Source: Ignavibacteria bacterium (GTDB lineage Bacteria; Bacteroidota; Ignavibacteria; Kapaibacteriales; UBA2268). From it: 64,000 nucleotides of DNA. Under the pieces are notes generated by a model. It saw nothing but the letters and a program-made list of their open reading frames with translations. It ran no database searches and was not told the DNA's origin. The position numbers and the translations under genes were made by a program. The stretch covers positions 86,568 to 150,567 of the forward strand of contig JAAYTD010000087.1 of the NCBI GenBank assembly GCA_012518115.1. The letters run 5' to 3'. Of the stretch, positions 47,820 to 62,402 are shown piece by piece. Position 1 is the first letter of the stretch; the number at the start of each line of letters is the position of its first letter.

Positions 47820-49745
47820 TCAAATACGCATACTTAAACTTAAACGAAACGAACGACCGGGCATAGGATAGTTAGAAACTAAAGAATAATGCTCATTAAA
47901 TAAATTTCTGCAAGACAAACGAAGCGTAAAATCTGCACCAAATAAAGCTAGTTGCTTGTAAATATATGCATCAAAAGTAAGATAGCTTGGTAAAATATAG
48001 CGCGAATCATTGTCAGGCTGCACATAACGAAAACTTGAATAATCCATTTTCCCACCTAAATGAATCTCATAAAAAGAAGTTTCAAGCATTAACGTAATCT
48101 GTTCTTGAGGTGTATATACTAGCTGCTTGCCATAAGTTATTGAACCGCTAGTATTATCTAAAGTTTTCTGCAAAGTATAAGACAAAGAAAAATTTTCAAT
48201 GAATAAAAAAGGATTATTCAAAAAAAGAGAAATTTCTAAACCTTTAGAATTAACATTATCAAGATTTGTGGCGCTCCAACTTACAGGAGTTTTTGGAACA
48301 GAAACTATCATATCACGCGTAGAAATAAAAAACACATCTACATCAAAACTTAAGTAATTGAATATATTAGAACTTATTCCAAAGTTAAAATTATTAGAAC
48401 GCTCCGAACGCAAATCTATAGTTCCATAATTACGATAATACATTTCATTAAAATTAGGCGGACGGAAATTATATGACAAAGTAGATTTAAGACGAACAGG
48501 AAAATCTGAAATGCCATACATCAAGCCACATAAATAAGAAAATGCCGTTTCAGTGTCACTAATATAATCAAAACGCCCACCTAAGCTAAAGTCCATATTA
48601 TGCAAATCTAAGAAATTAAAAGACTTCTCTAAACGATACGCAATTCCTAAAGTATGACGAAAAACAGATGAATCCGAAACAGGATCAAGCATATTGCCTG
48701 TTAAATGGCTAAAAAAAGTAGAAAATAAAAATTCGTTATTTATTCCGTAAAACAAGCTATTATATTTGCCACTAATGCCCATATCTTTTAAATTAAAATA
48801 GCTATCTGTTTGCGAAGTTTTTGCAGGTTCTTGATAACAGCTATTGTCAAAACGCGAGATTGCAGAAATAAGCAAAGAAGAAGTAGACGAAAAAATACGA
48901 GAACTATTGAGAACAAAGAGAAATTTATCATCTGATAATCTATCTGTACAATCCGCTATTTTTCCCTGTAAAATAGCACCGGGAACGCCTTTTTCCGTTT
49001 CACTATATATAGCGCGCGCCCAAAAATTCCATTTGGAAAAACTTGCATTTCCAGACACAGAAAACGAAAGTCTCTCATAATCGGAATTTACGCGGCGAAA
49101 TTCTGTTTCTTTACCAAATTGATTATAAGTAAAAGGAAAATCACCTTCTGAACTTAAATAATCAAAAGAAGCTAAAAGATAGCTATTGTCAAATAAAACA
49201 TTAGCTCCTAAACCCAAAGCACGCTCACTAAAAGAGCCAAGCGAAAGATCAACTCTAAATAAATCTTTAGGACGAAAATTTGTCCGCAGATTAACCACAC
49301 CACCTACGGCATTTCCGCCAAAAATCGCTGAAGATCCTCCACGCACTATCTCAATATCATCAAGTAATGAAGGTGAAAAATCACCTAAATCAAAGCTACT
49401 ATTTTGTGTAGAGCTAATAGGCATTCCATCAAGCAACACCAAAGTACGCGAACTACCTGTGCCACGAATAGAAACTGTCTTTAATCCCGAAAGCCCACCA
49501 TAATCAGAAATATAGATACCGGGCGAAAGATTTAGAATATCAGAAATTTGAACAGGCGACAAGCTATTTATGTATTCAAGCCCTATAAGTTTATGAGGTG
49601 TAAACTCTATCGCAGAATTACTGAAAGGACGAACAGCCGTAACTTCTACAGCAGGCAAATATTTTACTACAGTATCTTTTTCCATTGAAAAGACACTGAT
49701 AGAACAAAAAATGAAAAAAAATATATGTATTATGTAACGATGCAC
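47820..49745 (-). CDS. TonB-dependent outer-membrane receptor
   Basis: Plug domain SPVQISDILNLSPGIYISDYGGLSGLKTVSIRGTGSSRTLVLLDGMPI...IEIVRGGSSAIFGGNAVGGVVNLRT; beta-barrel C-terminus ending in aromatic-rich strands. Confidence 0.92.
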   Translation of the reverse strand: MHRYIIHIFFFIFCSISVFSMEKDTVVKYLPAVEVTAVRPFSNSAIEFTPHKLIGLEYINSLSPVQISDILNLSPGIYISDYGGLSGLKTVSIRGTGSSRTLVLLDGMPISSTQNSSFDLGDFSPSLLDDIEIVRGGSSAIFGGNAVGGVVNLRTNFRPKDLFRVDLSLGSFSERALGLGANVLFDNSYLLASFDYLSSEGDFPFTYNQFGKETEFRRVNSDYERLSFSVSGNASFSKWNFWARAIYSETEKGVPGAILQGKIADCTDRLSDDKFLFVLNSSRIFSSTSSLLISAISRFDNSCYQEPAKTSQTDSYFNLKDMGISGKYNSLFYGINNEFLFSTFFSHLTGNMLDPVSDSSVFRHTLGIAYRLEKSFNFLDLHNMDFSLGGRFDYISDTETAFSYLCGLMYGISDFPVRLKSTLSYNFRPPNFNEMYYRNYGTIDLRSERSNNFNFGISSNIFNYLSFDVDVFFISTRDMIVSVPKTPVSWSATNLDNVNSKGLEISLFLNNPFLFIENFSLSYTLQKTLDNTSGSITYGKQLVYTPQEQITLMLETSFYEIHLGGKMDYSSFRYVQPDNDSRYILPSYLTFDAYIYKQLALFGADFTLRLSCRNLFNEHYSLVSNYPMPGRSFRLSLSMRI

Positions 49746-49833
49746 TATCTTGTAAAAATAAAATATGATATTAATTATATTTAGATAATATTACAACCGT
49801 TCAAAATTTATATTTTGTTCAATGATGTTTTAA

Positions 49834-50048
49834 AATTCCCCTTCCCAGAAGGGGTGGCAAACGAAGTTTGACAGGGTAGTCTATTAATAAAATTAACCAC
49901 AAACCCCGTAGGGGTGACAAGATTATAGAATAAATTAAACCGCAAACAATCAAACCCCGTAGGGGTGACATAGCATTATAACTACACATCCCCTGCTTCG
50001 CAAAATGAGGGCAAAAGACCCTTATCTACAACTCTCAAGAGGAGAATT
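49834..50048. repeat. Dispersed repeat cluster: family A, two CCCCGTAGGGG units, family B
   Basis: TTCCCCTTCCCAGAAGGGGTGGCAAACGAAGTTTGACAGGGTAGTC; AAACCCCGTAGGGGTGACA (x2); ...CAAGAGGAGAATT. Confidence 0.85.
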
Positions 50049-50149
50049 TGACGACTATATTATGAACAAATAGTTATTCAATTTGATATTACTAAATATT
50101 ATCTAATATGCAAATATACATATTTTTTATAATTTTTATACAAGAAAAA

Positions 50150-50177
50150 ACCATTTCCGCAAGAATACGAAAATGGT
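50150..50177. terminator. Putative terminator of the NifX/MinD-ATPase cluster
   Basis: ACCATTTcCG-caagaata-CGaAAATGGT hairpin downstream of the last gene (ends at 50228, minus). Confidence 0.45.
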
Positions 50178-50227
50178 AATTTGTTATATATGTCAGTGTC
50201 ATTAGCACCGCTATTTGTATTATTTTT

Positions 50228-51100
50228 TTATACCTTGACATTCGGAAAAACAGCCGAATGAGCTTTTTTAATTAGCTTGCTTATTTCTGAATCGGGTGCG
50301 TAAACGATGATTGATGAGCAATTAACCATAGCTTCTACAACCAACGGATCAAATGGCAGCTTGCCTATAACTTCAATACCGTTTTCACTGCAATAGCTTT
50401 CTATTTCAGAAGAGAGCTCCCGATTTATATCAAATTTATTTATTAAAACGCTAGTCGGCAGTTTAAATCCTGCGGTAAGTTCAAGAGTACGTTTTAGGTC
50501 GTGAACTCCTGACACGGAAGGTTCTGTTACCACAATCACAGCATCAACGCCTGTTATAGTGCTAATTGCAGAACAGCCGATGCCCGGCGGTCCATCAATA
50601 ATAATATGTTCTATCCCGTGATTTTTCGCTATCTCTTTTGCCTTTTCACGAACTTTGCTAACCAATTTACCTGTATTTTCTTCGCCCGGTGCAAGTCGCC
50701 CATAAACCATTCTGCCATTTTTAAAACGTCCCGCATAAAAACGGCTTCTATCTTCCTCTGCAACGGTAATAGCACCATGCGGACACACGCGAGAACACAA
50801 TAAACAGCCCTCACACAGCGTGTCAATAATAGATACTCCAAGCTCATTTTCTACGATAGCATCAAACCTACAGTAATCCACGCAGATACCGCAATTTATA
50901 CATTTCTCTTTATTGAGTATCGCTTTCTGTCCCGAAATAAAAACATGCTCTTCATCGCAAACAGGATTAAACAGCAAGTAAAGATTTGCCGCATCTACAT
51001 CACAATCCGCTAGTACCACAGGATTTTGCAAGGTAGCAAATGCCGCGCTAACACTACTTTTTCCGGTTCCGCCTTTTCCACTAATTATTGCTATTTCCAT
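50228..51100 (-). CDS. MinD/Mrp-superfamily P-loop ATPase with inserted 2[4Fe-4S] ferredoxin domain (copy 1)
   Basis: ISGKGGTGKSSV; CINCGICVDYCRFDAI...CEGCLLCSRVCPHGAI; IIDGPPGIGCSA. Confidence 0.92.
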   Translation of the reverse strand: MEIAIISGKGGTGKSSVSAAFATLQNPVVLADCDVDAANLYLLFNPVCDEEHVFISGQKAILNKEKCINCGICVDYCRFDAIVENELGVSIIDTLCEGCLLCSRVCPHGAITVAEEDRSRFYAGRFKNGRMVYGRLAPGEENTGKLVSKVREKAKEIAKNHGIEHIIIDGPPGIGCSAISTITGVDAVIVVTEPSVSGVHDLKRTLELTAGFKLPTSVLINKFDINRELSSEIESYCSENGIEVIGKLPFDPLVVEAMVNCSSIIVYAPDSEISKLIKKAHSAVFPNVKV

Positions 51101-51102
51101 AA

Positions 51103-51984
51103 TTATTTTATCTTAACTTTTTGAAACTCTTCTTTTATAGTGTGGTACAACTGTTTAAATTTTGTTTTCCACTCGGAGTTAATACTAGTAATCAACTCAC
51201 CTTTCGAATAAGCAACCGCAATTTCTCTGTCAAACGGCACGCTCATAAGCAGCGGAATATTCTCCTGTTTTAGATAGTTGCGTACATCATCAACTCCCAT
51301 ATCTGCTCTATTGATAATAACACCGCAAGGTATTTGCATCTCTTTTAGAATCTCTATTGATTGCTTTAAGTCGCTAAGTCCAAAAGGAGTAGGCTCAGTT
51401 ACCAAAACCACATAATCGGCTCTGTAAACCGTTTGAATAAACGGACAACCAGTACCGGGCGGCGAATCAAGCAGTACTAAATCAAACTTATTAGCAGCCT
51501 TTATTGACTCTTTTATAATTTCTATTGATATGTGAACTCCCACTTCCATTCTTCCCTCAATAAGCTCATTGCCAGAGGAAAAGCGATATCTATTAACATG
51601 ACCTAGAAGTTCATCTTTTTCCGATATAGCTCCATATTCACACGCAACAGAACAAGCTCCGCAGCCATGACAAAGTTCCTCAAGTACATCAATAATTGAA
51701 TGCTTCCCAATAAAAAAGATAGCATTGAAGTTACAGTATTCGTCGCATTTTCCGCAATAGGTGCATTTTGATTTGTCAATAACCGGCACCTTTTGCGTAA
51801 CTGCTTGCGTACTTTGCAGTTCTCCTTCCTTCAAAAACTCCCTGTCGTTAGGTGCTTCTGCGTCGCAATCCACCAAAGCCATATTCAACTCACTATCTTG
51901 TAATGAGTTGAATAGGTTGGTAGATATGAACGTTTTCCCTGTGCCTCCTTTGCCACTAGCAATGGCTATGGTGATCGCCGTCAT
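51103..51984 (-). CDS. MinD/Mrp-superfamily P-loop ATPase with inserted 2[4Fe-4S] ferredoxin domain (copy 2)
   Basis: IASGKGGTGKTFISTNL; CTYCGKCDEYCNFNAIFF...CHGCGACSVACEYGAI; LLDSPPGTGCPF. Confidence 0.92.
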   Translation of the reverse strand: MTAITIAIASGKGGTGKTFISTNLFNSLQDSELNMALVDCDAEAPNDREFLKEGELQSTQAVTQKVPVIDKSKCTYCGKCDEYCNFNAIFFIGKHSIIDVLEELCHGCGACSVACEYGAISEKDELLGHVNRYRFSSGNELIEGRMEVGVHISIEIIKESIKAANKFDLVLLDSPPGTGCPFIQTVYRADYVVLVTEPTPFGLSDLKQSIEILKEMQIPCGVIINRADMGVDDVRNYLKQENIPLLMSVPFDREIAVAYSKGELITSINSEWKTKFKQLYHTIKEEFQKVKIK

Positions 51985-52324
51985 GATTACAATAGTTAGC
52001 GTTTAGGGATAAATTCCCAGCTAAAAATTCGTTAACAATTTCCTCCTCGCTTTTCACAGGAGCTCCTACAAATACGTTAATTCCCTGTTCGTTAAACAGG
52101 TCAATAGCTCGTTGCCCTATACCGCCTGCGATTACATCAGTAACCCCAAGCGAAGCAATCCATTTTGGGTACACGCCCGGTTTATGTTCAGGTGGCACCT
52201 GTTTAGTTATTTCTGCAATTTTTTTGTCTTGCACATCAATAATCGCGAAATATTCGCAATGTCCGAAATGTGTCGAAAGTTTCCCGTTTTCCATCGGGAT
52301 AGCAATTTTTTGTGTCATAGCCAT
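51956..52324 (-). CDS. NifX/NifB-type (dinitrogenase iron-molybdenum cofactor biosynthesis family) protein with His/Cys-rich tail
   Basis: IAIPMENGKLSTHFGHCEYFAIIDV...DVIAGGIGQRAIDLFNEQGINVFVGA; tail NYCNHDGDHHSHC. Confidence 0.88.
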   Translation of the reverse strand: MAMTQKIAIPMENGKLSTHFGHCEYFAIIDVQDKKIAEITKQVPPEHKPGVYPKWIASLGVTDVIAGGIGQRAIDLFNEQGINVFVGAPVKSEEEIVNEFLAGNLSLNANYCNHDGDHHSHC

Positions 52325-52349
52325 TTACTTTTAAATTATTTATAAAAAC

Positions 52350-52619
52350 TTAATTATTTCCGCGTCCTCTGCCTTGTCTGTTTCGACCTCCGCATTGTCC
52401 GAACCCGCGTCTTTGTGCAAGTCCGCGACCTTCAGCTTGTCCGGCAGAACCGCGACCAAAACCGAGACCTCTTCTCATTCCGAGACCTCTTCCTACATTT
52501 TCATTCATAGGTTCTTCTGTAGAACCTATATTTTCAGCACCATAATTAGTGCATTTACCTAATTTACGTCCAGTCATGGGACCTTCGCCCATTGGACCTT
52601 GTTGATTAAATCTTGGCAT
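52350..52619 (-). CDS. DUF5320-like Gly/Arg-rich small protein
   Basis: MPRFNQQGPMGEGPMTGRKLGKC... (N-terminal MPxxxxxGPMGxGPMTGR motif), RG-rich C-terminus. Confidence 0.8.
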   Translation of the reverse strand: MPRFNQQGPMGEGPMTGRKLGKCTNYGAENIGSTEEPMNENVGRGLGMRRGLGFGRGSAGQAEGRGLAQRRGFGQCGGRNRQGRGRGNN

Positions 52620-52663
52620 ATTATATCTCCTTTATTTAAAAAATTATTAATTAATTAATTTGT

Positions 52664-52969
52664 TTAAAACCCTTTTATGATTTCCGAAATGGTTTTATCT
52701 TTGTCATTTACCATTTCAATTTGAAGTTTATTTAACATATCTTCTGCTTTTTTTCCAAACTCAGGTGCTACGACTTTCTTCGCCTCTTTCGATGCGATGA
52801 ACTTCACAGCTTCTGGACCAGCTCCCTCAGGAGCATCCTTTGCTGGGTTAGGAAAAAATTCGGTAGTTTTGCTATCAGTATCATAGATAGCAAAATAAGC
52901 ACAACGCCCGAAACGACTGTCTATTCGTGCGTCTAAACTGTTCTTTTCTGATACAATTGCAATTTTCAT
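52664..52969 (-). CDS. NifX/NifB-type (dinitrogenase iron-molybdenum cofactor biosynthesis family) protein
   Basis: MKIAIVSEKNSLDARIDSRFGRCAYFAIYDT...GPEAVKFIASKEAKKVVAPEFGKKAEDML. Confidence 0.85.
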   Translation of the reverse strand: MKIAIVSEKNSLDARIDSRFGRCAYFAIYDTDSKTTEFFPNPAKDAPEGAGPEAVKFIASKEAKKVVAPEFGKKAEDMLNKLQIEMVNDKDKTISEIIKGF

Positions 52970-53015
52970 AATGTTTATCTTTATAAAATGTTAATAATAC
53001 TAATATCTAAAACCT

Positions 53016-53450
53016 TTATTTATCGGTTTCAATCTCTAAATTTATATCTGGCGGGTTGCGCTCCTCGCTTCCTCTCCTTTTGCGTTTTCTGCAAGGATGT
53101 TCTTGACTGCGTGTGTCATCTATTAACATATTACAACGACGACAACGATACCGCTTTCCGCCAAAATCTACATTTCCGCCCTCAATTACCAATGTTTTCC
53201 CTTCCACAAATGCTTCGGCAACCGCTTGCCTAGCTTTCGCATAAATCCGCGTGAGCGTTGGACGCGATACGTTCATTCGCTCAGCTGCTTCCTCTTGCAG
53301 CAAGCCCTCATAATCTAACAATCGAATAGCTTCATACTCATCGTATTGCAAAACGACTTCTCCCGTTACCGAACGAGGAATGCCAAACGGTTTGAAACCT
53401 GACATTAAGGGCTGCGATTTTATTCTTCTACATTGTTTTGGACGTGCCAT
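53016..53450 (-). CDS. DUF134 family (HTH) putative regulator
   Basis: MARPKQCRRIKSQPLMSGFKPFGIP...LQYDEYEAIRLLDYEGLLQEEAAERMNVSRPTLTRIYAKARQAVAEAFVEGKTLVIEGG. Confidence 0.93.
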   Translation of the reverse strand: MARPKQCRRIKSQPLMSGFKPFGIPRSVTGEVVLQYDEYEAIRLLDYEGLLQEEAAERMNVSRPTLTRIYAKARQAVAEAFVEGKTLVIEGGNVDFGGKRYRCRRCNMLIDDTRSQEHPCRKRKRRGSEERNPPDINLEIETDK

Positions 53451-53487
53451 AATCTTTAATTTTTTGAATTACACTATCATATACGTA

Positions 53488-53520
53488 CAAATATACGAAA
53501 AAGTTTTGAACATATGTTCA
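53488..53520 (-). promoter_or_regulatory. Candidate promoter/operator of the DUF134 cluster: palindrome TGAACATATGTTCA (53507-53520) 11 bp upstream of TATATTTG (53488-53495)
   Basis: Exact 14-bp palindrome and TAnnTTTG match upstream of the start codon at 53450. Confidence 0.65.
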
Positions 53521-53627
53521 TAATTTGGAAAAAAATTTGATTTTTTTGCAATATTTTTATTTTGGCTGTAATGTTATGTGAATTGAAGCAAGGGCTACTG
53601 GTATTGAAGTAACTAATTAATTAATTT

Positions 53628-54911
53628 CTATTTTACATCAAATACTTCTCCATCACGAAGAGAAATAATATTAACTTGTTTGTTAAAAAATTCCTCAAAT
53701 TTTTCAGGAGCTCCTGTGTGAATGGGTATAATGCCACCTTTGGGTTCTACTGTTTCAAAAACCACTTTTAGCGTTTCCAAATCTGCATGACCGCTTGTGT
53801 GCATATGTTCAATTTCATATGGTTTCAAAAAATCATATAATGTTTCATTAAAAGCAGGTTTCTCACGATCCAAATATCCGTCCCACATAGAATAATATAT
53901 CTTAGTGTCGTTTAATTTAGAGTATTCCTCTAAGAGTGGCTTAAAGGCATCATTTGAACGTATGAGCATACAAAAACCATATCTATCTAAATATGATTTT
54001 AATTTTTCATGAAAATAAAAAGGTTTTTCCCCTTTACGTATCAAATCAAAGAAACGCCCTGCTGGATCTGTATTTTGCTCATAGTCAATGTCATAAAAAG
54101 ATGTGTATTGCTTATGGTTTTCTGAGACTATTTTTAGAGTTTTCGCTTGATAGTCATCGCAAACAAAACAACGCTTTGCCTTTTTTGAAACATGATACAA
54201 TGCGAATATCCTATCTATGTTAGTTGAAGAAACTAAAACAAAGTTGTACTTGTATTTTTGAAGATAGGATTCAAAATCTTTTTGTAGTTCGTTTTCTGTT
54301 TTAATTTTATCATTTGCGCGTTGAATATTTGTACCTTCGGAAATAATGTAATCAATATCTTTGGCGTAGGCTTTAAGTGTTGGAATAAGTCCTTTACTTC
54401 TGAATCCATGTCCGCGAAAATCGCCCGTATGTAGTATTCGTTTATTATCAGCCTCAATAACAAACATATAAGCGTCGAAAGCGGAATGGTCAACAAATAG
54501 TGGCATAACAGTAATTTCCCCAATTGTGACTTTTTGCAATGCCTCAAAAGTGTTGATTGTTTTAATACGCTCAACAATTCTTTTGTGCCTTTCAGCCTCG
54601 TTGGGGTCCGGTATGTAGGACAATCTATTTTCGATATGTTTAAAAATTTCTAGTGCAGTTTTCCCTACGTATATCGGTAAATCATTAACCGTATCGCAAA
54701 TTTTTCCAATATGGTCGCCATGATAGTGAGTTATAAATAATGCACTTTTTGAAACATCACCACAAGTTAACCCATCTATCGGGCTTAATTCTTTAGCATC
54801 TGTTCCGAGCAACTGTTCGCCAAAGTCAATAAAAACTTTATAGCCGTCACTTTCAATCTCGGTTATACAACCGCCAATTTGATTTGTTCCTCTATGAATT
54901 GTTAGTTTCAT
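53628..54911 (-). CDS. RNase J-like metallo-beta-lactamase/beta-CASP hydrolase
   Basis: FITHYHGDHIGK (HxHxDH), VDHSAFDAYMFVIE, ILHTGDFRGHG, SEGTN, HTSGHADLETL, IIPIHTGAP. Confidence 0.85.
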   Translation of the reverse strand: MKLTIHRGTNQIGGCITEIESDGYKVFIDFGEQLLGTDAKELSPIDGLTCGDVSKSALFITHYHGDHIGKICDTVNDLPIYVGKTALEIFKHIENRLSYIPDPNEAERHKRIVERIKTINTFEALQKVTIGEITVMPLFVDHSAFDAYMFVIEADNKRILHTGDFRGHGFRSKGLIPTLKAYAKDIDYIISEGTNIQRANDKIKTENELQKDFESYLQKYKYNFVLVSSTNIDRIFALYHVSKKAKRCFVCDDYQAKTLKIVSENHKQYTSFYDIDYEQNTDPAGRFFDLIRKGEKPFYFHEKLKSYLDRYGFCMLIRSNDAFKPLLEEYSKLNDTKIYYSMWDGYLDREKPAFNETLYDFLKPYEIEHMHTSGHADLETLKVVFETVEPKGGIIPIHTGAPEKFEEFFNKQVNIISLRDGEVFDVK

Positions 54912-55882
54912 TCAGGTATCCTTTCGTCGTAAGCACCATCAATAATATCAGTAATTTCAAGATTATCAAGTGTTGCTTTAGAAAATAAAAAAGTTGCAAA
55001 AAATTTGTTACCTCTCTTTGTAATGTCACCGAATTCGTTTTCCACAGTGTTTTTTGCTAATCTTTTACAACCCCAACGCTTTTCTTTGAAAAGGTATCCA
55101 GCCAATGTTTGTTTAGGGGTGCTTGCTTTCACACTTTCGGCATTATTATCCAATATAATAAAATAAAACTCTGGAACTTTCTTTAAATCGGATTCTTTAA
55201 TCAACCCGAAAGGCACATCTACCCCGAGTTCTTTTTGACTTTCAACTATAGCAATTATGTCATGTTTTAAATGTTCTTCAAAATAACCTTTTTCTAAAAA
55301 AACACTAAAATCGCTTACGTGTTTCTTGATTCCACTTGGTTCCTTTAGAGAGCCTTTACCATATTTTAACTCTATCAAAGCGACCCTATACGGTTTCTTT
55401 TTGGAAAGTGCAATAATATCAAATCGCGCATTAAAATTTGCCTCGTTTTTTGCTGCTTCATTTTTAAAAGGTTTTACATATTCAATATCGATGCAAAACC
55501 AATTTGAATCTAAGTTTTTGTTGTTCAAGAGGACTAATTTTGATTGAGCTTTTTTTTCCTGAGTTTTTCTTATATTACTATGGCTTTTAATAACCTCGTA
55601 CTGAGCATATATTTCTTTCGGTCCAGTTTTATATCGCTTGTTTTTATCCTTGCTATCGTAATGTTTTCCATCTAAATAATACTTATCAATCACACAATTG
55701 ATTTTTTTATCTCGCAATTTATACTCTACCCTCGCAATACTATCACAATTATAATACAAATTCAAATAATTGTTTCTCACTCCGATAAATAATTCGTGTT
55801 TGTGTTCTTTATAAAGATTATAAAGTTCACTTTGTTTAAAAGCTTCTGCAAATTCCGTAGAAATTCTTCGTATATTTTCCAT
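54908..55882 (-). CDS. Hypothetical protein with a PD-(D/E)XK-like nuclease motif
   Basis: RFDIIALSKKKPYRVALIELKYGKGSL gives D...ExK spacing; start reassigned to MENIRRISTEF at 55882; stop overlaps the next start (54908-54911). Confidence 0.6.
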   Translation of the reverse strand: MENIRRISTEFAEAFKQSELYNLYKEHKHELFIGVRNNYLNLYYNCDSIARVEYKLRDKKINCVIDKYYLDGKHYDSKDKNKRYKTGPKEIYAQYEVIKSHSNIRKTQEKKAQSKLVLLNNKNLDSNWFCIDIEYVKPFKNEAAKNEANFNARFDIIALSKKKPYRVALIELKYGKGSLKEPSGIKKHVSDFSVFLEKGYFEEHLKHDIIAIVESQKELGVDVPFGLIKESDLKKVPEFYFIILDNNAESVKASTPKQTLAGYLFKEKRWGCKRLAKNTVENEFGDITKRGNKFFATFLFSKATLDNLEITDIIDGAYDERIPE

Positions 55883-55904
55883 TAGTTCGTTCCCATTTTT
55901 ATAT

Positions 55905-55945
55905 AAAACAAATATAACAAAAAAAATTGTATATATATTCAAAAC
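55905..55945 (-). repeat. 41-bp promoter-like direct repeat, copy 1
   Basis: aaaacaaatataacaaaaaaaattgtatatatattcaaaac; reverse complement contains TTG...TATATTTG. Confidence 0.85.
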
Positions 55946-56010
55946 TCAGATTTTTTTATTCTTGTTTCTATCATTTTAATTTCAGCATCAATCACAAAAC
56001 AAGTAGCTTA

Positions 56011-56840
56011 TTATACTTTTTCCCCTTGTAGCCACATAAATCCAGTTAACAAGTCGCCTACTTTAGGTTTTTGGTCAAAAAAATCTGTCTTAGCATATAA
56101 GTTAATTTCAATCTCTGGAAATCTAAAAAGCGTTATCTTAAATTTATAGAAATCTTTGTCAAACGCACGTATAGTTTCAATGCTACTAATTGGTGATAGA
56201 AATTCCGCATCATCCGGATAATCCTTATTTGCTTGTAGGAAAATAACAAGTTGACTTAGATTAAATACGAAAGGCTCCACATTGCCCTTTTCATCATAAG
56301 TTGGTTCTTCTTCAATTTTTTCAAGCCAATCTATTGCTTCTTGTCCTTCCAATGATAATGATGCTTCTTCCTGAATTTTAACATTATACCCTAATGCAGA
56401 AATAGCAAAATCGTATGTTTCACCTATTTTGTAGGTTTCTTTATGTAAAAAATAACTTGTGTCGAAAAATGAAATTGTTTGATCGTCTTCTGTTTTTCCT
56501 GTTATAACTGCTTCAATAAGGTGTTCCCATTCATTGATTTCAGTAATTTCCAATTGAACAATATTTTTTCCTTTGATTGAATAAATGGATAAGCACAAAC
56601 AGCTTCATTAATCTGTTTTTCCGGATTTACTGCAACCAAAACTTTTGTAGTTAGTTCAGCTTCATCTGTAATGGTAAAGACTTCAGTAGCAGTTGGAGTT
56701 TTATCCCCAAAATACTTAGCAATTATTTCAGATTTTTCTATTTTATTTCCTTTTTGAATCATTGAAGGAAAAATCTCATCAAGTACTTTGTCAATTTCTT
56801 CAACACAGTCCCAGTGATTTCCATGTCCATGCTTAACCAT
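56011..56840 (-). pseudogene. Frameshifted hypothetical gene (ORFs 56502..56840 and 56011..56598 are two parts of one reading frame)
   Basis: Upstream frame reads ...NEAVCAYPFIQSK-E; downstream frame resumes ...KGKNIVQLEITEINEWEHLIEAVITG. The junction is an A6 run (GGAAAAAAT); adding one A gives a single 276-aa ORF (831 nt). Confidence 0.72.
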
Positions 56841-56904
56841 ATTCTTTCCTCATTTATAATTTTTATATTAATATATCTCTACTTGTTTATAACATTTAAC
56901 ACAC

Positions 56905-56945
56905 AAAACAAATATAACAAAAAAAATTGTATATATATTCAAAAC
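56905..56945 (-). repeat. 41-bp promoter-like direct repeat, copy 2
   Basis: Identical to 55905-55945, exactly 1000 bp apart; upstream of the frameshifted gene. Confidence 0.85.
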
Positions 56946-56970
56946 AGTATTAAATTTTCACCCATAAGTA

Positions 56971-57001
56971 TTGTTTATATGTTAATAATTTTATATCTTT
57001 G
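56971..57001 (+). promoter_or_regulatory. Candidate Bacteroidota promoter of rtcB: TTG-N20-TATCTTTG
   Basis: TTG at 56971-56973, TATCTTTG at 56994-57001, start codon at 57039. Confidence 0.6.
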
Positions 57002-57038
57002 TAGATTACTTATAATTATGTCGTAAAAATTTAACATT

Positions 57039-58211
57039 ATGAAAAAAATTATAGATACGGAACGAATTCCCATTAAACTTTGGCTTGATGAAATTGAAGA
57101 AAATACTCTTCAACAGGCAAAAAATCTTGCTAATTTGCCTTTTGCATTTAGAAATATTTGCCTTATGCCCGATGCACACTCAGGTTTCGGAATGCCTATT
57201 GGTGGAGTAATGGCTGCTGATAACGTGATAGTGCCTAATGCTGTAGGAGTTGATATTGGTTGCGGTATGTGTGCTGTGAAAACCGATATTGAACTAACGC
57301 CAGAAGTTCAGCAAGAACTAAAGAATATTTTAGGAGATATAAGGAAAAGAGTACCTGTTGGATCCTCTCACCATAAAAAAGCACAAGATGAAAACCTTAT
57401 GCCTCAAGGCTACGACATTGATGATATGAAAGTGGTAAGAACGGAGTATTCATCTGCTCTAAAACAGATTGGAACTCTGGGTGGCGGAAATCACTTTATC
57501 GAAATTCAAAAAGATAAAGACAATTATATCTGGATTATGATACACTCAGGTAGCAGAAATATAGGCAAAAAGGTTGCAGACCACTATAATAATATTGCAA
57601 AAAAACTGAACAAGGAGTGGAATTCTCCTGTACCTCCTAAGGCTGATCTTGCTTATCTTCCTTTTACTTGTAAAGAAGCACATAGCTATTATGAAGAGAT
57701 GAAATACTGTGTTGATTTTGCATTAGCAAATCGCAAATTGATGCTTACAAGAGTACAAGAAGTATTTTTAGATTTTTTCCCTAATATCAATTTTGGTGAA
57801 ATTATAAACATTGCACATAACTATGCTACATGGGAAAAACATTTTGGTAAAAAAGTGGTGGTGCATCGTAAGGGCGCTACTTCTGCACATAAAGGCGAGA
57901 TTGGAATTATACCCGGTTCGCAAGGTACAAAGTCATATATTGTAGAAGGCTTAGGAAATCCTGAGAGCTTTGCAAGTTGTTCGCACGGAGCAGGTCGCAC
58001 AATGGGACGTAACGAAGCTATACGAAACTTAAACTTTGAAGAGGAAAAGCAAAAACTCGATAGCTTGGGAATTCTCCACGCTGTGAGAGGTAAAAGAGAT
58101 TTAGAAGAAGCTCCTTCCGCATACAAAAATATTGCTGAAGTTATGGCAAATCAAGAAGATTTGGTAAAAATAAAGGTTGAATTATCGCCACTTGCTGTTG
58201 TTAAAGGATAG
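57039..58211 (+). CDS. rtcB: RtcB family RNA ligase
   Basis: LMPDAHSGFGMPIGGVMA, VGVDIGCGM, GTLGGGNHFIE, HSGSRNIGK, HRKGATSAHKGEIGIIPGSQGTKSYIVEG, SCSHGAGRTMGR. Confidence 0.95.
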   Translation: MKKIIDTERIPIKLWLDEIEENTLQQAKNLANLPFAFRNICLMPDAHSGFGMPIGGVMAADNVIVPNAVGVDIGCGMCAVKTDIELTPEVQQELKNILGDIRKRVPVGSSHHKKAQDENLMPQGYDIDDMKVVRTEYSSALKQIGTLGGGNHFIEIQKDKDNYIWIMIHSGSRNIGKKVADHYNNIAKKLNKEWNSPVPPKADLAYLPFTCKEAHSYYEEMKYCVDFALANRKLMLTRVQEVFLDFFPNINFGEIINIAHNYATWEKHFGKKVVVHRKGATSAHKGEIGIIPGSQGTKSYIVEGLGNPESFASCSHGAGRTMGRNEAIRNLNFEEEKQKLDSLGILHAVRGKRDLEEAPSAYKNIAEVMANQEDLVKIKVELSPLAVVKG

Positions 58212-58351
58212 TCGGGAAACAAATTAAGAAACATAGCATAAAATAGCAACATCTTGCATGAATGAATAAAAATACAGTTCATAATTCAATGCGAACAAAC
58301 CCGAAATTGTAAATCAGCTTGCAGAAAATTTTGTAAGAAAATTAGCTTCAT

Positions 58352-59470
58352 TTGACATCGTTTACCTATATGCAAAGTACACCGAAATACCGCAAAATAA
58401 TCCACGTGGATATGGATGCTTTTTATGCATCTGTAGAACAACGCGATCATCCTGAATGGCGAGGCAAACCGCTTGTGGTAGGTAGTTCGCACCCTCGCGG
58501 AGTAATTGCGGCAGCAAGTTATGAAGCTCGTAAGTTTGGCATTCACTCAGCTATGGCATCAAAAAAAGCGATGCAACTTTGTCCACACCTGATTTTCGCA
58601 CCACATCGTTTTGATGTTTACAAATCGGTATCAAGAGAAATTCATAAGATTTTTAGCGAATATACTGACTTAATAGAACCTCTTTCGCTTGACGAAGCTT
58701 TTCTCGATGTTACTAAAAACAAGTTCAACATCTTGCTTGCACAAGATATTGCTAAGGAAATTAAACTAAAAATAAAATCACAGCTTAACCTTACAGCTTC
58801 TGCTGGAGTTTCGTATAACAAGTTTTTGGCTAAAATAGCTTCCGATATGCAGAAACCCGACGGTTTGACCGTTATTCACCCTAAAAAAGCTCTAAGAGTA
58901 ATTGAAAGTTTGCCGATAGAGGCTTTCTGGGGCGTGGGACCTGTTACAGCGCGGCGAATGCACGAATTAGGCATTCACACAGGAAAAGATTTAAAATCAA
59001 AATCAGAATTGTTTTTGGTTAAGCATTTCGGGAAAAGAGGAACACTTTTTGCGGAATTTGCGCAAGGTTACGACCATCGCAAAGTAGAGCCCGATAGAGA
59101 ACGTTTATCTGTAGGATGTGAGCAAACTTTTGGTGAGGATATTATGGAAAAAGAGCAAATTATCGCTCGTTTTGACGATTTGGCTGAAGAATTAGAAAAG
59201 CGGATTGAACGAGCTCATTTCCAAGGATATACATTCACACTGAAAATAAAGCGAGGCGATTTTAAGCAAATAACCCGAAGCCAAACCACCCAAACTTGCT
59301 TTACATTAGCTACGGAATTTACACAACTAGCTACAAGACTTTTAGAAACAGTAGAGCTAGAAAATCACGGAGTACGGCTAATCGGTTTTACAGTAAGTAA
59401 TCCAGCTGTTAGTGAGCTCTCTCATACGTTGTTTGACCCGCAGCTATTGATACCTTTTGAGCCGTATTAA
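58352..59470 (+). CDS. dinB: DNA polymerase IV (Y-family)
   Basis: IIHVDMDAFYASVEQRDHPEWRGKPLVVG, SYEARKFGIHSAMAS, EPLSLDEAFLDVT, SAGVSYNKFLAKIASDMQKPDGLTVI. Confidence 0.96.
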   Translation: MTSFTYMQSTPKYRKIIHVDMDAFYASVEQRDHPEWRGKPLVVGSSHPRGVIAAASYEARKFGIHSAMASKKAMQLCPHLIFAPHRFDVYKSVSREIHKIFSEYTDLIEPLSLDEAFLDVTKNKFNILLAQDIAKEIKLKIKSQLNLTASAGVSYNKFLAKIASDMQKPDGLTVIHPKKALRVIESLPIEAFWGVGPVTARRMHELGIHTGKDLKSKSELFLVKHFGKRGTLFAEFAQGYDHRKVEPDRERLSVGCEQTFGEDIMEKEQIIARFDDLAEELEKRIERAHFQGYTFTLKIKRGDFKQITRSQTTQTCFTLATEFTQLATRLLETVELENHGVRLIGFTVSNPAVSELSHTLFDPQLLIPFEPY

Positions 59471-59488
59471 TACCCCAATAATAAAAAA

Positions 59489-59515
59489 AAACTGTATAAG
59501 TTCATTATACAGTTT
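59489..59515. terminator. Bidirectional terminator
   Basis: AAACTGTATAA-gttca-TTATACAGTTT, perfect 11-bp stem between convergent genes. Confidence 0.7.
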
Positions 59516-59549
59516 GAATTATATTTGAAGTACAAAATAAATTACAATT

Positions 59550-60821
59550 TTACTTGAGTGCCTTTAAAGGTTTTACGAAATACATAATATTTCTATCAAC
59601 CTCATTATTTAATAAAGGTGAAATTTTAGCTTCGTAAGTACCCTCACCACCTATTCCGAAATCATCATCATTTACAATAGCAATTAAATTATCATTAATG
59701 ATTATTACGCCTTCAGGTTTATCGTGTGGATAATTCGGAATAGACATAATATCAAATGCCAATTCTTTGGTAACAGTTACAATCCCTGCAGCCAAAAGTT
59801 CCTCAGCAGTGCATTGCTCAATTGTCTTGTCACCTATCATTTTTCCTGTAGCTAAATCAGTAGTTATATCAGTTGCTTTAGAAATATCAATTTTATATAT
59901 TTTTTTCGAGCAACTCGTATCTTTACCCGGCATATTTCCATCTCTTTCTAATACTAAAAAAGTAGTATTGCTAATAGCTGTAATTTCACTGTTTGCCATA
60001 TTTGTATTGTCCAAAGCATATAAATATTCCTTGCTCTTTCCTGTAGCTAGTTCAAAAAATAATATTCTACATATAGTAGCGTTCTTTTTTACACTTTTAT
60101 CAGGATTGTATAAAGGAGACTGCATAATACCTACCAAGTATTTGCCGTCTGGAGTAATAGTTAGCCCTTCCATTCCTCTATTGGCTCTACGTTTTGCAAA
60201 TACAGGAGGTAATTTTTTGGCAGTATTATATGGATTAAATCTTTCAATTTCCTGCCCATTAGAGTTCAGATGAACTATATGCGGACCGTATTCATCGGAA
60301 ATCCAGAAAGAACCATCTTTCATAGCTACTAACCCTTCAGGATCTAACCCATAAATGTCAGTATTAAGTGTGTTTCCATTAATATCTTTCGGAGTTTCTC
60401 CTGTTCCACCTGCGCCAATAGGATTTGGCAATCCTGTTATTTTTTGTCCAGCAGGATTTTTAATTTCTATGGTGCTTACTAATACTAATGAATCACCTTC
60501 TAACTTAAATTTTCCTATTTGTGGAGTAAATTCCGGATTAGAAAAGACTTTTTCGTCTTTTCCGCTACCGTCGATATTTGGACCTCTATCGGTCATAGCA
60601 TAGAAATAACCATCTCCTGTAGAAGCAGCTGCAGAGCCATATCCACCATTATATACATTCACTTCCCCTACTGTACTCATAACAATACGTTTATTCAAGA
60701 TAGCCTTGTCAGGGTAATTAATGGGTCCTATCGGATTATTATCTTCATCACAAGAATTAATTAATACAATGCTTGCTACTAGCAACATCGTGTTTGCAAT
60801 TTTAATAAATTTCTTTTTCAT
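59550..60821 (-). CDS. Esterase-like/phytase-like lipoprotein
   Basis: Lipobox VLINSCDED; YAMTDRGPNIDG, YGLDPEGLVAMKDGSFWISDEYGPHIVHLNSNGQEIERF, NRGMEGLTITPDGKYLVGIMQSPLY. Confidence 0.82.
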   Translation of the reverse strand: MKKKFIKIANTMLLVASIVLINSCDEDNNPIGPINYPDKAILNKRIVMSTVGEVNVYNGGYGSAAASTGDGYFYAMTDRGPNIDGSGKDEKVFSNPEFTPQIGKFKLEGDSLVLVSTIEIKNPAGQKITGLPNPIGAGGTGETPKDINGNTLNTDIYGLDPEGLVAMKDGSFWISDEYGPHIVHLNSNGQEIERFNPYNTAKKLPPVFAKRRANRGMEGLTITPDGKYLVGIMQSPLYNPDKSVKKNATICRILFFELATGKSKEYLYALDNTNMANSEITAISNTTFLVLERDGNMPGKDTSCSKKIYKIDISKATDITTDLATGKMIGDKTIEQCTAEELLAAGIVTVTKELAFDIMSIPNYPHDKPEGVIIINDNLIAIVNDDDFGIGGEGTYEAKISPLLNNEVDRNIMYFVKPLKALK

Positions 60822-60943
60822 ATAAATTTTGTAATATTAGTTAATTAAATTGGTTTACAAAATTAATAATTTAAGATGAAGTTAAAATAAAGGATTAGTT
60901 AATTTTTTGTTTATCTAATTTTTTTCTATTTCGATAATTAATA

Positions 60944-61387
60944 CTACTCTATCGAATAAAGCTTTCGTAGCGGTTTCAAAAGTACTAGCACCAACAGTAA
61001 CACACCATAGAAAAAGTAAAACGAGTGTAACCAATGGAAACCTTGCAGGAAATAGACTTCCATATAAATCCAAATCATAAGTGCAAAGCCTGTGTAAACT
61101 GACCATGACCACGACCAATGCATATCGGGAAATATATTTACCAACTGAGCTAACTTACACTCTTTGCGTTTTAGCAATCCCCAAGCGACAAAAATCGGCA
61201 TCAATCCAAGTATAGTGAATAAAATCAGTCCGGGTATAAAAAAGTTTCGAAAAGGCGAATGTTGTAGCATTAATTCGGGTGTCATTCCCATCCATCCTTC
61301 AGGAAATAATAAGAAAGCTCCTCCACCAAATAGAGCTCCAGCTGAAAGGAAAAGCAAAAGTCCAACTAATAGATTTCGAGTTTTCAT
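60944..61387 (-). CDS. Hypothetical membrane protein
   Basis: ORF 155 aa with TM helices; start reassigned to MKTRNLLVGLLLFL. Confidence 0.55.
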   Translation of the reverse strand: MKTRNLLVGLLLFLSAGALFGGGAFLLFPEGWMGMTPELMLQHSPFRNFFIPGLILFTILGLMPIFVAWGLLKRKECKLAQLVNIFPDMHWSWSWSVYTGFALMIWIYMEVYFLQGFHWLHSFYFFYGVLLLVLVLLKPLRKLYSIE

Positions 61388-61487
61388 ACAATTATTATTT
61401 ATATATTTCAACGATTATTATTATTCAAAATTAAGCACATTAAATTCTATTTTATTAAGTATGCTTTTGTAATATGCTTGTTATTTT

Positions 61488-62402
61488 TTAATCAATTTTT
61501 ATTACTACATTACCCTTTTTATGACCTTTATCAACATATTCGTGTGCTTCAACAATTTGCTCTATTGAATAGATGCGATCAATAACAGGTTTCATTTCGC
61601 CGTTTTCAATTATATCTTTCAAAAATAGTAAATCTTTTTCTTCTGTTTTCGGAAGTTGAGAGTTTTTAAAAAAAATACCATTCTCTTTCAATATTCTCTT
61701 ACACTTAGCTTTTGTTGATTTCATTACAGCATCATAAACAATATCGTATTTTTCATTAATCTTTGTGAAATCTTCTTTCGTGTAATCAATCACTTTGTCT
61801 GCTCCAATTGATTTTACTAGTTCAAAGTTTTTTTCACTACAAACTGCCGTAACTTCCGCACCGAAATATTTTGCCAACTGAATAGCAAATGTACCCAAAC
61901 TGCCCGAAGCTCCATTAATTAATATTTTTTGTCCTTTGCTGATATTTGCTTTCTGCAAATTTTTCAATGCGGTTAGTCCACCTGCGGGAATAGTTGCCGC
62001 CTCTTCAAATGACAAGTTTTCGGGTTTCAATGCAAGCAATCCATTTTTTGTAAATGATTTTGATTTTTCAGGCAGACAGATATATTCAGCATAGCCGCCA
62101 AATTTTAAACCTGTATAAGCAAACACTTTATCGCCCACTTTGAGTGATTTTATATTTTTTCCGATTGCTTCTATTATTCCCGAAATTTCCATTCCGAGTA
62201 TCATATTTTTCTTTGGCTTAAACAAACCAAATACTAGTCTCACAAGAAAAGGATCGGCTTTTCTGATACGTGTATCACCAATGTGTACGGTAGTGGCAAA
62301 AATTTTTACTAAAACTTCGTCATCTTTTGGTGTCGGTTTTGCAACTTCAACTATTTCCAAAACTTCGGGCTTTCCGTATTTTCTGCAAACAACTGCTTTC
62401 AT
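61488..62402 (-). CDS. NAD(P)-dependent alcohol dehydrogenase/quinone oxidoreductase (MDR family)
   Basis: MKAVVCRKYGKPEVLEIVEVAKPTPKDDEVLVKI, GMEISGIIEAIGKNIKSLKVGDKVFAYTG, ILINGASGSLGTFAIQLAKYFGAEVTAVCS. Confidence 0.93.
   Translation of the reverse strand: MKAVVCRKYGKPEVLEIVEVAKPTPKDDEVLVKIFATTVHIGDTRIRKADPFLVRLVFGLFKPKKNMILGMEISGIIEAIGKNIKSLKVGDKVFAYTGLKFGGYAEYICLPEKSKSFTKNGLLALKPENLSFEEAATIPAGGLTALKNLQKANISKGQKILINGASGSLGTFAIQLAKYFGAEVTAVCSEKNFELVKSIGADKVIDYTKEDFTKINEKYDIVYDAVMKSTKAKCKRILKENGIFFKNSQLPKTEEKDLLFLKDIIENGEMKPVIDRIYSIEQIVEAHEYVDKGHKKGNVVIKID

Follow-up and report, generated by a model that had tools for sequence, protein, structure and literature searches.

The window, namely, the whole analyzed stretch of 64,000 nucleotides from an Ignavibacteria bacterium, carries a two-gene operon on its minus strand at positions 53628-55882, which encodes a 324-aa protein of likely PD-(D/E)XK type and a 427-aa RNase J-like beta-CASP metallo-beta-lactamase hydrolase. 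The hydrolase gene (53628-54911, minus) has complete catalytic motifs and was assigned from its ORF, its motifs, and the matches of its family profile to EF2904 and RNase J. The partner gene (54908-55882, minus) was assigned from its ORF, conserved residues, and an AlphaFold2 model, and its product has a beta-rich N-terminal domain. The PD-(D/E)XK domain, delimited using the partner alignment and a domain model, covers residues 96-247 (55142-55597, minus) and contains E109, D132/E134, D155, and E171-x-K173. The partner ORF is open from a TTG over 54908-55942; when read from the ATG at 55882, it gives 324 aa, a length equal to that of the partner in relative L003. The stop of the nuclease gene overlaps the start of the hydrolase gene by 4 nt (ATGA, 54908-54911, minus), an arrangement of translational coupling that was also found in relatives. 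The overlap was present in 10 of 24 hydrolase-partner pairs, and the relatives with the identical overlap were L003, L004, L018, L025, L040, L057, L059, L060, and L061.

A promoter-like module of 41 bp precedes the operon at 55905-55945 (minus), and a second copy at 56905-56945 (minus) precedes a frameshifted neighbor gene. Repeat search showed that the copies match perfectly and lie exactly 1000 bp apart, and a genome-wide search allowing up to 3 mismatches gave no further copy. On the minus strand, the module contains TATATTTG, in agreement with TAnnTTTG, the Bacteroidota -7 element. The frameshifted gene (56011-56840, minus) consists of two overlapping ORFs, 56502-56840 and 56011-56598. Its homologue was absent from every related locus fetched, and the gene is therefore probably outside the system. 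The first-pass annotation, which was made from the sequence alone, had claimed the two ORFs with their motifs and the overlap, the identical promoter-like module, and a frameshifted gene just upstream. All of these claims held. The possibility that the split gene is a third component was discarded for want of homologues. The GC content is 0.29-0.30 in 55000-57000 and 0.32-0.40 in the remainder of 48000-62000, so that the region is AT-richer than its flanks. No tRNA or integrase was seen near the pair in the window.

The hydrolase contains HYHGDH (residues 62-67), DHS (141-143), TGDF, SEGTN, HTSGHAD (371-377), and PIHT (396-399). Its membership in the beta-CASP metallo-beta-lactamases was established computationally, as motifs 1-4 and A, B, and C were all present. 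Moreover, D29, H62, H64, D66, H67, H142, D164, E192, H375, and H398 were invariant in an alignment of 20 relatives, and the motif C residue in this alignment was His, as in RNase J. A His at motif C is characteristic of RNA-type beta-CASP enzymes. The closest solved relative was EF2904 (PDB 2az4), which was matched by the hydrolase family profile at 4.8e-39 over nearly the full length and whose only name in the PDB is "hypothetical protein". The profile also matched RNase J at full length (3.4e-32), and motifs 1-4, A, B, and C and the motif C His are shared with that enzyme. However, the hydrolase scored 55 bits against the NCBIfam RNase J model TIGR00649, for which the cut-off is 400, and the profile match stopped with the beta-CASP region. 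The RNase J C-terminal domain was missing, and there is no room for it because the hydrolase has 427 aa, compared with about 555 aa in RNase J. Since the score was far below the cut-off and the protein was too short for this domain, the hydrolase was regarded as RNase J-like and not as RNase J. The window hydrolase further differs in being an accessory protein of rare occurrence, the gene of which is paired with one for a PD-(D/E)XK protein.

In the case of the 324-aa protein, the D...ExK pattern claimed in the first reading was confirmed. When 15 partners were aligned, E134, D155, E171, and K173 were invariant and D132 nearly so; when 27 partners were aligned, D155 and E171 were invariant, and E109 and K173 were conserved in >90%. 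PD-(D/E)XK membership by catalytic D...(D/E)xK residues kept across relatives was thus met. The AlphaFold2 model of the full-length protein had a pTM of 0.81, the mean pLDDT of the PD-(D/E)XK domain model was 86, and the core elements of the alpha-beta-beta-beta-alpha-beta fold were visible in the models. McrC, BstEII, Cas4, and NucC headed the Foldseek neighbors of the domain; RecB and a number of restriction enzymes came next, interspersed with unrelated folds. The majority of the top neighbors were PD-(D/E)XK enzymes, but none of the matches, whether for the whole protein or its domain, was below E 0.001. Sequence searches added little. A single-protein Pfam search gave nothing usable (EVE was below the cut-off), a single-protein search of PDB sequences gave zero matches, and the partner profile returned only noise against PDB sequences. 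The absence of a PD-(D/E)XK fold would have refuted the assignment; this was not the case given the residue pattern and predicted core, although the Foldseek result was non-significant. Consequently, placement in the PD-(D/E)XK superfamily is likely, being well supported by the residue pattern and the predicted model and unproven by fold search. Judging from the conserved residues, both proteins appear catalytically intact, and their nuclease activity is inferred.

To describe the distribution of the pair, the neighbors of 36 hydrolase genes were examined. The loci came from genome contigs (11 starting loci, ten of which proved to be real relatives), plasmids, Bacteroidota genomes, and viral contigs, and they included a second copy in the window's genome. 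Hydrolase relatives occurred in Bacteroidota, Alpha- and Betaproteobacteria, Clostridia, and viral contigs. Of the 36 loci, 28 had a D...ExK-type gene on the strand of the hydrolase, either next to it or a few genes off and mostly directly upstream; the count becomes 26 of 36 if L001, where the ORF has an in-frame stop, and L058, with the motif ExE, are excluded. The gene was downstream of the hydrolase in L021, L023, L018, and L061, and other genes lay between the two in L007, L008, L010, L041, and L056. No recognizable PD-(D/E)XK neighbor was present at L005, L006, L009, L019, L027, and L075 (6/36), and the remaining two of the eight negative loci, L016 and L042, were truncated by contig ends. 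Conversely, a PD-(D/E)XK relative in G341 (L055) had no hydrolase within about 7 kb; the search hit for this relative contained a single in-frame TGA. In a contrast set of more distant MBL relatives (H57, H73, and H76), no annotated nuclease adjoined the MBL gene. Confinement of the pair to this genome would have refuted the proposal, and the pair was found to be kept well beyond it, with co-occurrence across phyla.

The D...ExK pattern was found in 20 of 46 same-strand ORFs within 120 nt of the hydrolase and in 25 of 277 other ORFs (Fisher p 5.6e-8); this count is approximate because the ORFs were chosen mechanically. The hydrolase and partner distances were correlated (Mantel r 0.44, p 0.0002, 24 pairs, species phylogeny uncorrected). 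Species relatedness is not controlled for in either result, and both therefore serve only as support. In a phylum sample of 396 Bacteroidota genomes, the hydrolase was present in six, indicating a rare and patchy distribution, and the partner was present in four at the thresholds used. Two additional viral scans returned chiefly known loci, the one addition being a hydrolase on its own in a phage contig. The window's own genome holds a second, diverged pair at G000:C63:19808-21914 (L013, L035), with a hydrolase 38-39% identical and without a metallophosphoesterase or WYL gene.

On comparing close relatives with the window, the PD-(D/E)XK partner was found to turn over faster than the hydrolase. 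The hydrolase of L002 was 73% identical and its partner 24%, and the hydrolase of L001 was 80% identical with an upstream D...ExK ORF that could not be aligned to the window partner by BLASTP; in L003, the values were 66% and 63%, respectively. From L002 and L001, it was concluded that the hydrolase stays constant and that the partner changes.

Other genes accompany the pair in some relatives. A metallophosphoesterase downstream in nine relatives matched the phage-defense candidate PDC-S10 of PADLOC (best 6.8e-73), and WYL-type regulators clustered near seven loci, with the Pfam WYL model itself matching five proteins. Neither gene was present at the window's copy. GmrSD and restriction-modification genes were near some relatives, and the settings included plasmids, prophage-like contigs, and Tn3 and TniB/TniQ neighbors. 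The mobility seen in plasmid and viral collections is not independent evidence, as such collections are mobile DNA by construction. In the window, a gene for the RNA ligase RtcB (57039-58211, plus) adjoins the operon in divergent orientation. RtcB was near just two of the hydrolase loci, and the window RtcB was found in none of 12 relatives searched at E 1e-40, so that it may be merely another accessory gene. No empty insertion site was found using the flanking genes because RtcB itself is sporadic.

Two further proteins were observed near the hydrolase genes. A small protein with a GIFW motif lay upstream of the hydrolase in Proteobacteria (L021, L023, and L027), and a similar motif occurred within a longer protein at the Bacteroidota locus L041; the GIFW-motif proteins tested had no Pfam or PADLOC match. 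A protein of about 300 aa, with a start like FELKRI...RYPVRK, recurred in L005, L007, L008, and L041, and its L005 copy had no Pfam or PADLOC match.

The pair was also compared with known systems. Neither window protein matched any PADLOC-DB 2023 profile, and the relatives gave only weak matches, e.g., LmuA at 1.7e-6 in 4 of 20. Lamassu was considered because of this weak match and rejected, since the score was low and no ATPase of the Lamassu type was noticed nearby. The partner shares the predicted core and D...ExK residues with McrC, Cas4, NucC, and BstEII, but differs in having almost no sequence match to the Pfam PD-(D/E)XK families or PADLOC models; single members weakly matched SduA_C, PDDEXK_9, or NERD. 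Type VII CRISPR uses a beta-CASP effector, Cas14, which the hydrolase family profile matched more weakly (3.3e-16); unlike that system, no cas genes were among the ORFs beside the window's pair. PDC-S10 is listed alone in PADLOC as a candidate, and it is missing from the window's copy. Nuclease-protease pairs (PMC12799240) are bacterial defense systems in which an MBL-type nuclease gene adjoins a partner gene; however, their MBL resembles DNA-uptake nucleases and their partner is a protease, whereas the window has a beta-CASP and a PD-(D/E)XK protein. No paper or named system with the PD-(D/E)XK and beta-CASP pair was found in the open-access literature searched or PADLOC-DB 2023, and within these sources, the result agrees with the first-pass annotation, to which no named system with this exact pair was known. 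As the search covered only open-access literature and that PADLOC-DB version, a recent or subscription-only description could be missed.

Taken as a recurrent, patchily distributed, and apparently undescribed nuclease module, with the nuclease activity inferred, the pair has defense as its likeliest role. We favor, by a modest margin, the reading that the two genes form a conflict module spread by horizontal transfer, most probably for anti-phage or anti-plasmid defense. The defense role is inferred from genomic context only, and the physical complex, substrate, and order of action are likewise inferred, as no experiment exists. The first-pass annotation had suggested joint RNA/DNA processing or defense; the former part remains without activity data. 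In the proposed mechanism, the N-terminal domain of the PD-(D/E)XK protein would recognize either an infection cue or the nucleic acid of an invader, and the latter would be nicked or cut by the nuclease domain. The coupled beta-CASP subunit, with its RNA-type motif C His, would then degrade nucleic acid from the resulting 5'-phosphate ends, or transcripts. The PD-(D/E)XK protein would thus be the variable specificity or trigger subunit and the beta-CASP protein the constant nuclease. Some relatives add the metallophosphoesterase and WYL regulator, and the window's copy has neither.

Three other explanations were considered. The first is RNA processing or repair, in which the pair acts on damaged RNA by trimming or cleavage, leaving the neighboring RtcB ligase to reseal it. 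RtcB adjoins the window operon, the region upstream of the L005 hydrolase encodes RtcB together with a PrfH-like release factor, and the motif C His is of the RNA type. However, this explanation is unlikely given the divergent orientation and the scarcity of RtcB at the other loci described above. A toxin-antitoxin or self-killing system, in which the variable PD-(D/E)XK protein is a toxic nuclease controlled by the hydrolase or an infection cue, would be in keeping with the coupling of the two genes, their patchy distribution, and the speed at which one partner turns over. It is also doubtful, as both proteins seem catalytically intact from their residues, and the longer, conserved hydrolase is unlike known antitoxins. 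A role as DNA repair or plasmid-maintenance nucleases on mobile elements, and not in defense, is suggested by SNM1-type beta-CASP enzymes, which act in DNA repair, and by the G341 partner relative, which adjoins a gene resembling a uracil-DNA glycosylase relative (by inspection only), but it is unlikely because the motif C His is that of RNA-type enzymes and the module is missing from nearly all genomes searched.

Within the defense reading, a bolder version is possible. In this version, the pair would form an undescribed defense system whose sensor-nuclease, the PD-(D/E)XK protein, is exchanged rapidly and arms an RNase J-like nuclease that stays constant, and one invader would come under attack as both DNA and RNA. 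If confirmed, the pair would represent a compact two-gene nuclease system common to several phyla, and its relatives would provide a natural swapped-partner set for asking how a changing nuclease directs a constant one. Moreover, confirmation would give a function to an uncharacterized RNase J-like branch and a possible setting to the orphan candidate PDC-S10.

Beside the operon, the minus strand at 50228-53450 encodes two ferredoxin-containing MinD/Mrp-type ATPases, together with small proteins resembling FeMo-cofactor-type accessory proteins and a DUF134-like regulator; all of these were named by inspection only.
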